Assembly (NCBI GenBank): GCA_902617825.1
Contig: CACMYE010000005.1
Location: 1-64,000 of the forward strand
DNA length: 64,000 nucleotides
Direction: 5' to 3'
From: an uncultured Pelagibacteraceae bacterium
GTDB taxonomy: Bacteria; Pseudomonadota; Alphaproteobacteria; Pelagibacterales; Pelagibacteraceae
Shown: piece after piece, positions 23,578-27,988 of the stretch
Position numbering within the stretch: the first letter of the stretch is position 1
Layout: every line of letters starts with the position of its first letter
Made by a program: the position numbers and the translations under genes
Notes under the pieces: model-generated
Database searches by the model: none
Seen by the model: the letters and a program-made list of their open reading frames with translations, nothing else
Told to the model about the DNA's origin: nothing

Positions 23578-23874
23578 TTACAAATAGTCACTTTTTTTTA
23601 TTTTACTAGTAATTTCTTTTCTTGAATATTCAAATTTTTTTCTGTGTTTTATACTTTTTTGATTAACTCTTTTTCTCCACAATCTAAAAGAAGATGGTTT
23701 TATAGATCTTCTCATAATCTTGATTACTTCAGATTCTGTTTTTCCAGTTTTTTTTTCTATTTCCTCGAAAGTAATTCTGTCAGCCCAGGCTGCCCAAATA
23801 ACCCAATCTGGGTCAGTTATGTCTGGTTCAGGATTTTTGACTCTGGTGACTGGAATGCGACCTTTTTTTTTCAT
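23578..23874 (-). CDS. DUF2805 (TIGR03643) family protein
   Basis: A 98 aa basic protein. The core WADRITFEEIEKKTGKTE followed by VIKIMRRSIKPSSFRLWRKR matches DUF2805, a short family with a helix-turn-helix-like look. Function is not established. The N-terminal 20 residues and the lysine-rich C-terminus (SKIKKSDYL) extend beyond the core. It is cotranscribed with glutaredoxin. Confidence 0.8.
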   Translation of the reverse strand: MKKKGRIPVTRVKNPEPDITDPDWVIWAAWADRITFEEIEKKTGKTESEVIKIMRRSIKPSSFRLWRKRVNQKSIKHRKKFEYSRKEITSKIKKSDYL

Positions 23875-23936
23875 AAACCCTTTATAATTGAAATAAAAAT
23901 TTAATGCATTTTTTTTGGTGTTTGATATTATTTACT

Positions 23937-23985
23937 AGATAGTCCTTCTTAGCCATCTTTAGCTCCCGGTTTTTAAGGACTATCT
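23937..23985 (+). promoter_or_regulatory. Hairpin enclosing the LysE-gene ribosome binding site
   Basis: AGATAGTCCTT (23937-23947) and AAGGACTATCT (23975-23985) are perfect 11-base inverted repeats around a 27-base loop. The right arm contains AAGGA, the only Shine-Dalgarno-like sequence before the ATG at 23991. Folding would hide it. There is no T-run, so a terminator is unlikely. This looks like a translational control element (riboswitch-like, thermometer-like, or protein-bound). Confidence 0.6.
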
Positions 23986-23990
23986 TTAAA

Positions 23991-24605
23991 ATGCTTCCCC
24001 TTAATTATTTTTTATTTTTACAAATAATTCTTTTTTTATTTATTACCCCTGGACCACCAAGGATCGTGATTGTTTCATATTCTATGAATTATGGGGTTCA
24101 AAAATGTATTTGGACTGCATTTGGAGATATTACAGCAAATATCATTCAAGCTACTTTAGTAATTTTTGTTATTGGATCTTTTTTTTCAGAAAACTCAAAC
24201 TTTCTTAATATATTTAAATGGATAGGCGTTGCGTATATTTTATATCTAGCATTTGATATTTATAATTCCAGACCTAAAGAAATTAGCTCAAGTAAAGAAT
24301 TTTCAAAAAGTTTCTTTTCATTTTTTAAAGATGGCTTTCTAGTTGCTGGAACTAGTCCAAAGGCTTGGATGTTCTTCCCGCTAATTTTTCCACAATTTAT
24401 TAACTTTAATGAGAATTATTTAATTCAATTTTTAATTTTAATTACAACTTATGTTGTTTTAGATTTTTTATCTCTGATTGGTTACGCTTTACTTGCACAA
24501 AAGCTTGTTAATTGGATTAATACAAAACCACGAACAATTAATACAATTTCTGCGGGTGTATTAGTAATTATTGCAGTAATTATCGTTGTTACTCAACAAT
24601 ACTAA
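23991..24605 (+). CDS. LysE/RhtB-family amino acid exporter
   Basis: A 204 aa inner membrane protein with about six helices. The N-terminal ITPGPPRIVIVSYSMNYG matches the LysE-family PGP signature, followed by GDITANIIQATLVIF. The GTSPKAWMFFPLIFPQF segment in the middle is also typical. Such proteins export amino acids or related compounds. Its 5' region carries a hairpin covering the ribosome binding site, so translation is probably regulated. The substrate is unknown. Confidence 0.85.
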   Translation: MLPLNYFLFLQIILFLFITPGPPRIVIVSYSMNYGVQKCIWTAFGDITANIIQATLVIFVIGSFFSENSNFLNIFKWIGVAYILYLAFDIYNSRPKEISSSKEFSKSFFSFFKDGFLVAGTSPKAWMFFPLIFPQFINFNENYLIQFLILITTYVVLDFLSLIGYALLAQKLVNWINTKPRTINTISAGVLVIIAVIIVVTQQY

Positions 24606-25991: not shown

Positions 25992-26885
25992 ATGGATTTC
26001 ATGGTCTTCCAATATCCAATGATTTCTGTTCAAGCATGTTTGGATGGAATATTACTTGGAATTTTATTTGCATTGATTGCTTATGGTATGGCGCTTCAAT
26101 GGGGAGTAATGAATATAATTAATATTGCTCAAGGAGATTTGGTTATTCTAGGAGGATACATTGCTTATTTCATGTATCTTTACGGAATTCACCCTGCATG
26201 GGGAGTTATTGTGTCACCAATTATAATGTTTTTTGTAGGTATAGCAATTTACAAACTTGTAATTAATAAAGTCGTCGATAGAGATTTATTTATTTCTATT
26301 TTAGCTACATTTGGAATAAGTATTTTGTTCATGCAATTAATGAACTTTGCATTTGGAGCCGACGTTGTTCTTGCAAACTCAGATTATGGAACAACTATGT
26401 TATTTAATAATAATGTAGTGTTGCCAAACTCAAAAATATTCTCAGCTTTTATAAGCATTTTATTTGCAATTTGTCTGGTAATTTACATGAAAAAATCTAA
26501 GCTTGGTCGCGCCATCAGAGCTACCGCTCAAAATGCAAGAGCAGCAAAGATTTTAGGCGTCGACACAGAAAAAGTTTATGCAGCAACTTTTGGAATTAAT
26601 GCAGCTCTTTGTGGAGTTGCCGGAGCACTAATTTCAATTACTTTTACAATTCACCCTTATATGGGACTTCCTTATACAATTAGATCTTTCATGATTGTTA
26701 TTGTTGCAGGATTAGGAAATTTACCTGGTGTTGCAATGTCAGGAATGGGTTTAGGTGTATTTGAGGAATTTGCAGATTACATACTTGGCACTGAATTTAG
26801 AATTGGATCAGTATTTTTACTTTTAGTTTTAATTCTAGTTTATAGAAGATTTAAACTTTCAAGAAAAAGAGAATATTTAAAATGA
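25992..26885 (+). CDS. livH: LivH-type ABC permease (system 1)
   Basis: Inner membrane permease of the HAAT family, 297 aa with about eight helices. Typical features: ILFALIAYGMALQWGVMNI followed by NIAQGDLVILGGY, and the EAA-like RAIRATAQNARAAKILGVD. A C-terminal IVAGLGNLPGVAMSG also matches LivH. The next gene, a secreted hydrolase, starts in an ATGA overlap with its stop. Substrate follows the binding protein and is unknown. Confidence 0.9.
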   Translation: MDFMVFQYPMISVQACLDGILLGILFALIAYGMALQWGVMNIINIAQGDLVILGGYIAYFMYLYGIHPAWGVIVSPIIMFFVGIAIYKLVINKVVDRDLFISILATFGISILFMQLMNFAFGADVVLANSDYGTTMLFNNNVVLPNSKIFSAFISILFAICLVIYMKKSKLGRAIRATAQNARAAKILGVDTEKVYAATFGINAALCGVAGALISITFTIHPYMGLPYTIRSFMIVIVAGLGNLPGVAMSGMGLGVFEEFADYILGTEFRIGSVFLLLVLILVYRRFKLSRKREYLK

Positions 26886-27988
26886 TAAGAAAAATTATAC
26901 TTTTAATTTTATTTTCACTATTTGTGTCATCGACAGTTCTTGCTTGCGAAGGTCGTGAAATAAAGAAAAGTGGATTTTTATACTATAAGGACGGCAAAGG
27001 TAAATTTATTGAAGGTTATGACATTGAAAATCCTCAAGATAAAATAATTATGGTTTTTAATCGTGGATCATGGCATGTAAAAAAAGGTTCTCGTTTTTGT
27101 ATTCAAAAAAACAATAGTATGCAAAGTGTATTAGCCCAACTTTCAGGAACAATTATAGATGGTAAAGAATTAGTTGTTTGGATTAATATGGAATTATGGA
27201 AAGCTGGTCTTTATACACATGAAAACAAATGTGTAAAAGGTGAGCATATGTATAAGGGTAAAAAATTATATTTTACTCCACCATATTGGAAATGTATGTG
27301 GGGACCACCAACTTATATAAAAAAAGTAAAAACCTCTAAAGATGATATTTTACAAGTTCCAGAATATGTTAGTAATTTTCCCTTAAAAAATAGAGCAGCA
27401 ATAAATAGTGCAATTGCGGATATATTTGTTGAAAAAGGAACACCAAGAAACCAACTTTTTATTTCAGGCCATTCATGTGGGGGTATTGGAAGTTTAAGAA
27501 TGGAGGCTGTGTTTCCAGAAGTTTATAATGCTGCAATTTCTCTTAATCCGAATTGTTGGGATAATATTGATAATGATTTAATGAGAGAGTTTCAGTTAGA
27601 TGAAATAAGAGGTGCAGAAAAATTAGACGCTTTAACTTTCCATGGAGAAATGGATGGAGCAAGTAGCTATTTAGGAATTTCAAGTTATATGAGGTGGATT
27701 GGAGATAAGCCTGGTGCTGAATGGGTTGAACTTCCAGTTCACAACAGTCCAAATGGAAAGGAATTTATAATTAATGGAGTAGAATGCAAAATAAAATATA
27801 GAATGAACAGTGGTTGGAAAATAAAGCATAATTGGGATTACGGCCATAAATCGAAAGCTTGGACTGTAGTAGATCCTAAAGAAAAAGCTGAAATGAAAAA
27901 AAAAGCTGCTGGACACAATATTGCATCTGACATGTGTTTTACGCCTTATCTAGAGGACATCAAAAAATTTATAGCAAAAAAATTATAA
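26882..27988 (+). CDS. Secreted alpha/beta hydrolase inside the Liv operon
   Basis: A 368 aa exported protein (signal peptide ending near VLACEG). The nucleophile elbow GHSCGG lies near residue 200 (LFISGHSCGGIGSLRMEAVF). A candidate acid is the Asp in LTFHGEMDGASS. Several His near the C-terminus (WDYGHKSK, AAGHNIAS) could complete the triad. Multiple cysteines suit a periplasmic enzyme. The fold resembles PHB-depolymerase/esterase-type enzymes, but I cannot name a substrate. It overlaps livH by 4 bases and precedes livM by 4 bases, so it is a true operon member. Its likely job is to release, in the periplasm, the compound that the importer then takes up. Confidence 0.65.
   Translation: MIRKIILLILFSLFVSSTVLACEGREIKKSGFLYYKDGKGKFIEGYDIENPQDKIIMVFNRGSWHVKKGSRFCIQKNNSMQSVLAQLSGTIIDGKELVVWINMELWKAGLYTHENKCVKGEHMYKGKKLYFTPPYWKCMWGPPTYIKKVKTSKDDILQVPEYVSNFPLKNRAAINSAIADIFVEKGTPRNQLFISGHSCGGIGSLRMEAVFPEVYNAAISLNPNCWDNIDNDLMREFQLDEIRGAEKLDALTFHGEMDGASSYLGISSYMRWIGDKPGAEWVELPVHNSPNGKEFIINGVECKIKYRMNSGWKIKHNWDYGHKSKAWTVVDPKEKAEMKKKAAGHNIASDMCFTPYLEDIKKFIAKKL

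Follow-up and report, generated by a model that had tools for sequence, protein, structure and literature searches.

What does the hairpin that lies just upstream of a LysE/RhtB-family exporter gene do in an uncultured Pelagibacteraceae bacterium? The window, i.e., the whole stretch of DNA that was analyzed, comprises 64,000 nt, and the coordinates of the features discussed here are in Table 1. Elsewhere in the window, an alphaproteobacterial permuted tmRNA is found on the minus strand at positions 1-276, where it is cut by the window edge. In addition, the ORF at 26882-27988 (plus strand; 368 aa, signal-like start) is situated between two branched-chain amino-acid-type transporter ORFs, of which the first is BPD_transp_2 and the second was judged by eye.

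Table 1. Coordinates of the hairpin, its neighbors and the peptide gene
Feature	Position	Strand	Remarks
rhtB sRNA hairpin, 11-bp outer stem	23937..23985	+	RF01814 model match 23920-23996
Inner stem AGCC/GGUU	23951-23954 / 23968-23971	+	within the rhtB sRNA hairpin
Apical loop, exactly AUCUUUAGCUCCC	23955-23967	+	bounded by the inner AGCC/GGUU pairs
Antisense core CAUCUUUAGCUCCC	23954..23967	+	exact complement of GGGAGCUAAAGAUG at G000:C4:52663-52676 (-)
Putative extended -10 promoter element TGATATTAT	23923..23931	+	TGnTAnnnT pattern across 115 loci
Conserved TAATGCATT box, ~-35	23902..23910	+	possible activator or sigma site
LysE/RhtB-family exporter, downstream neighbor	23991..24605	+	PF01810, E 8.7e-23
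DUF2805/TIGR03643 protein, divergent neighbor	23578..23874	-	upstream in 112/115 loci
Peptide gene L033, 29 aa, Lys/Arg-rich	G000:C4:52576-52676	-	stand-alone; no Pfam/NCBIfam match

The two arms of the outer stem, AGATAGTCCTT (23937-23947) and AAGGACTATCT (23975-23985), form 11 perfect pairs and enclose a loop of 27 nt (23948-23974), as a first-pass annotation had described. The folding energy of positions 23930-24000 is -18.6 kcal/mol, compared with a mean of -8.4 kcal/mol for shuffled sequences (z -4.4), and none of 200 shuffles folds as well. The annotation was also right in that no T-run follows the stem in the window genome, the sequence there being CTTTAAAATG. It had proposed a possibly new riboswitch class; the hairpin belongs instead to an existing Rfam family, RF01814 ‘rhtB sRNA’, with a covariance model score of 82.4 bits (gathering cut-off 55). 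The neighborhood of RF01814 type, with LysE downstream and DUF2805 divergent upstream, is present in the window as well. Covariation in the stem, which had been put forward as a check, is found among the orthologs: double changes preserve the pairing at stem positions 6, 9 and 10, and in the ungapped hairpins T-T mismatches occur once at position 9 and three times at position 10. Four loci (L151, L218, L220 and L262, of which L218 and L262 are apparently from the same genome) have the inner stem AACC instead of AGCC, which turns a G-U into an A-U pair. This base seems to serve the hairpin and not the target, since no matching change is seen at codon 2 of the targets known for these elements (G107, G125).

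RF01814 was described as the ‘rhtB associated element’, a bulged hairpin with a conserved loop, from Candidatus Pelagibacter ubique, with rhtB on one side and a hypothetical gene on the other (Meyer et al. 2009, PMC2704228). About half of the 2009 examples have a U-track after the element. Its function was left unassigned; a terminator, an inverted repeat or a regulatory role were offered, and the passages on the element name no target. The window hairpin is the same RNA, with the same neighbors, the bulged hairpin and the conserved loop, and what the present analysis adds to the description in those passages is a target with covarying pairing. No other paper that names the element was found by word searches of the open-licence literature, and the word rhtB is absent from the main text of a Red Sea SAR11 start-site paper (PMC5069720) and from that of PMC6429828. 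Word searches of the same literature also found no paper on a base-pairing sRNA with a named target in SAR11.

Within the order, RF01814 is present in 173 of 297 genomes, all of them from one of 11 genera, the window's own; it is found in none of 14 control genomes. At least 25 genomes of the window's genus have no match above the RF01814 cut-off. Twenty of these are multi-contig drafts that are 86-97% complete, and five more are further draft members of the genus.

The region was searched against the window's own genome (E <= 0.001), and the sole other match is that of the loop, which is antisense to the ribosome-binding site of a peptide gene on another contig. The complementarity is perfect over 14 nt and extends from the Shine-Dalgarno sequence to the AUG. 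Read on the opposite strand, the matched place is GGGAGCTAAAG-ATG, the site of ribosome binding for an ORF of 29 codons that begins MPKKRKKAAKKTKKK. The 14-mer GGGAGCTAAAGATG is found in all 36 genomes of the genus that were tried and in none of 8 genomes from other genera, and the reversed control gave no matches. Of 30 element-bearing genomes, 28 have exactly two copies, and the remaining two (G068 and G074) have the element copy only. Each of the single-contig genomes with the element (G003, G005, G011, G013, G015, G020 and G026) has two copies, and six genomes of the genus in which the element was not found have a single copy, at the peptide gene. All 34 of the non-element copies that were fetched are peptide ribosome-binding sites. 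The loop-target duplex has an energy of -33.8 kcal/mol; the best values among the controls are -17.2 kcal/mol for 65 ORF starts, taken from the window only, and -20.7 kcal/mol for 500 shuffled targets. It should be noted that codon 2 (CCT) interrupts the pairing beside the core in many genomes.

The ORFs that start at the non-element copies encode Lys/Arg-rich peptides of 21-35 aa in 34/34 of the fetched copies, and one found later has 20 aa. The gene displays a TTGACA-like promoter, a leader hairpin (ACGAATCA..GATTCGT), the ribosome-binding site, the ORF and a terminator hairpin with a T-run. This layout was read by eye in 20 loci, one of which is truncated before the promoter. The members scanned, three in one scan and two in another, gave no Pfam or NCBIfam match. 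The peptide gene L033 is convergent to a gene that by eye resembles a CarD-type regulator. A phage origin was considered and rejected: the 18-nt start pattern is present in 11 viral contigs, but the ORFs read there are not the K/R-rich peptide.

Do the loop and the target change together? Targets were gathered by the leader hairpin, GGAG and ATG, independently of the 14-mer, and 139 of 160 genomes matched. Loops came from covariance-model matches or from stem-only matches. The 139 targets consist of 130 with GGGAGCTAAAGATG, seven with GGGAGCTAAAAATG (the A-type), and one each with GGGAGCTGAAGATG and TGGAGCTAAAGATG; all seven A-type genomes carry the loop CATTTTTAGCTCCC. The stem-only scan of the named genomes gave at least 120 stretches, and those listed include 69 that represent this element and 51 that are unrelated. 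Among the stretches listed are at least two further U-type loops, and another loop has an additional T (CATTTTTTAGCTCCC). The targets of these three loops, looked up afterwards, are GGGAGCTAAAAATG, GGGAGCTAAAAATG and GGGAGCTAAAAAATG, respectively. In this follow-up, targets were searched for in 49 of the 69 stem-only loci of this element and found in 37.

In the 130 genomes for which both parts are available, an A-type target (GGGAGCTAAAAATG or GGGAGCTAAAAAATG) and the matching loop coincide in 10 of 10 cases, without exceptions (Fisher p 4e-15, kinship ignored). These are compensatory changes as are looked for in a trans-encoded antisense sRNA. Some named genomes repeat others, and sequences were clustered at 97% identity. 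The resulting 108 clusters include 94 with the consensus on both sides and nine with a target AAAAATG and a loop CAUUUUU, and one is lengthened on both sides by a matched one-base insertion (target AAAAAATG, loop CAUUUUUU). The one-sided changes, a loop C to U opposite G in two clusters and a target A to G opposite U in one, all form G-U pairs, and one further cluster (target of G133) has an unmatched edge base. Outside this count are 34 of 164 loop-bearing genomes, 8 that were outside the target search and 26 that were searched without a target match (12 in the follow-up and 14 in the leader-pattern search, rechecked with a looser pattern). A lost target, or one unlike the others, is possible in these 26, since some of them are 94-96% complete (G068, G115, G141).

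On a tree of neighboring proteins (47 rows), seven U-type loops fall into two groups that represent two changes, which suggests that the A/U type arose twice independently; the three named A/U-type genomes are outside the tree. A single origin is not rejected and even scores higher (AU p 0.66). Thus the independent co-changes perhaps comprise only one substitution and one insertion.

A protein that binds both sites, as DNA or as RNA, for example the peptide itself, might produce the same co-changes without any pairing. In favor of this reading, the double-strand sequence is identical at both loci and the peptide is strongly basic. However, what the plus-strand RNA holds is the complement of the target and not an identical RNA site. 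The sequence is kept exactly in an apical loop on a stem preserved with G-U pairs, and the one-sided changes mostly retain G-U pairing. We consider binding by a common protein very improbable.

The strand from which an RNA would be transcribed was assessed from the upstream sequences and from the stem. Of 115 loci, 112 have the pattern TGnTAnnnT 6-9 nt upstream of the stem, and none has it on the mirrored minus strand. Further upstream, 106 of the 115 loci have ATGCA at a distance of 34-37 nt from the stem; the TAATGCATT box is not a sigma-70 -35 hexamer and is perhaps an activator site or the site of another sigma factor. The position of the extended -10 element suggests that the RNA begins at the stem, with a predicted transcription start at about 23937-23938. 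The eight outer pairs of the 28 distinct hairpins found among the 115 elements comprise 217 Watson-Crick pairs and seven G-U pairs when read as plus-strand RNA, five of the seven at one position. There are no A-C pairs, which on the minus strand would be G-U. The position of the promoter and the G-U asymmetry both point to the plus strand as the strand of the active RNA, which, judged by sequence, would then have its own promoter adjacent to it, as is typical of a trans-encoded antisense sRNA.

An RNA from the minus strand would have a different meaning, with a short ORF (MAKKDYL...) that resembles the start of the peptide by descent or by common translation signals. That strand also folds, and GGGAG-6-ATG and a few like codons are present in it. 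The ORF, however, has five codons or fewer in 37 of 115 loci, and the minus strand scores 25.5 bits with the RF01814 model, below the cut-off. Together with the absence of both G-U pairs and the extended -10 pattern from this strand, these values make the minus-strand reading extremely improbable.

The first-pass reading was that of a metabolite-sensing leader whose stem hides the Shine-Dalgarno sequence of the exporter gene. LysE is found downstream of the element in 83 of 115 loci, with an ATG that follows the GGA of the stem by 9-19 nt (11 nt in the window). A T-run of five or more comes after the stem in 39 of the loci with LysE and in 10 of the other 32, i.e., in 49 of 115, and is absent from 66 of 115; read-through could feed LysE. 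Such an arrangement could serve a cis-acting riboswitch that controls the exporter by Shine-Dalgarno hiding or by attenuation. However, 31 of the 114 readable loci (L125, cut by a contig end, was left out) have no LysE in the 1.5 kb downstream, and proC-like, porin-like or convergent genes, named by eye, are found there instead. The element stays with DUF2805 (112/115) and not with the gene that it was thought to control. AAGGA is indeed located in the 3′ arm of the stem, as annotated, but its role as the LysE Shine-Dalgarno sequence is doubtful because the GGA-ATG spacing, the one measure used for this in the 83 loci, is long and variable. In addition, the loop core is fixed by its complement to another gene. 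A LysE leader is therefore very improbable. The more general part of the annotation, a conserved regulatory RNA with recognition by its loop, has held up, in that the loop core is an antisense that covaries with the ribosome-binding site of another gene.

The hairpin is probably a trans-acting antisense sRNA that silences the mRNA of a separate Lys/Arg-rich peptide, as far as this can be read from sequence comparisons. A short plus-strand RNA would be transcribed from its own extended -10 promoter, with its start at the stem base. Its stem would present the apical loop AUCUUUAGCUCCC, which, with the next base, would pair over 14 nt to the peptide mRNA. The paired stretch would comprise the Shine-Dalgarno sequence, the spacer and the AUG of the mRNA for a protamine-like peptide of 20-35 aa, and pairing would block ribosome binding and thus silence the peptide. 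The peptide itself may have a nucleic-acid-binding role.

Pairing is symmetric and 83 of 115 loci have LysE downstream, and a peptide mRNA that acts on the rhtB RNA or on the LysE transcript, as a sponge, would also fit these two observations. This reversed direction is given little credence here, since the paired stretch spans the Shine-Dalgarno sequence and the AUG of the peptide, and since sister genera possess the peptide gene but not the RNA, which fits a target. Genera g5-g7 carry this peptide gene and its leader without an RF01814 match, and the leader pattern is present in 27 of 46 genomes of the family outside the genus. The leader patterns gave no peptide gene in g2-g4, which is not to be taken as absence of the gene. 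A matching RNA in sister genera was also considered and rejected: there is no second exact copy of the ribosome-binding site in g5, where it is single-copy in 16/16 genomes.

The spacer between the Shine-Dalgarno sequence and the ATG has eight forms in 26 loci from sister genera without the RNA. Within the genus there are three forms in the 139 leader-pattern genomes and three in a set of 68 loci, about half of which were chosen by the exact 14-mer. The linker upstream of the Shine-Dalgarno sequence is variable in the sister genera (16 forms) as well as in the 68 loci of the genus (36 forms). The spacer is thus fixed where the RNA exists.

RsaE and RNAIII of Staphylococcus are trans-encoded sRNAs with C-rich UCCC loops that cover Shine-Dalgarno sequences. 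The proposed RNA would work in a similar way, with an exposed CUCCC loop of the hairpin that would bind to GGGAG and to the start codon by base pairing. It differs in that it is a single hairpin of ~50 nt, with one dedicated target, a pairing of 14 nt and an occurrence in an alphaproteobacterial genus, and the likeness meant here is one of mechanism. In the type I toxin-antitoxin systems IstR-1/tisB and OhsC/shoB, a tiny peptide gene is silenced by a trans antisense RNA. A tiny peptide gene and an antisense RNA at the region of translation start are also found here. Unlike the type I toxins, the peptide is highly basic (K/R-rich in 34/34) and not a hydrophobic membrane toxin, and unlike the genes of these systems, it is kept in sister genera without a detectable RNA.

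The hairpin might have two roles, in that an exporter leader would also silence the genus-wide protamine-like peptide in trans and would link the export of basic amino acids, or a signal at the TAATGCATT promoter, to the state of the nucleoid or ribosome in a bacterium that ranks among the most abundant in the sea. The distribution of T-runs at LysE and other loci leaves room for a transcript shared with LysE, and such a dual RNA is a tentative and rather unlikely proposal.

The element has been known since 2009; that its loop is antisense to the ribosome-binding site of a peptide gene is new here. An orphan Rfam family, RF01814, thus gains a testable function and a target, supported by natural compensatory changes. 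In addition, an unnamed conserved gene for a basic peptide is brought out, with a promoter-like TTGACA, a leader hairpin and a terminator.
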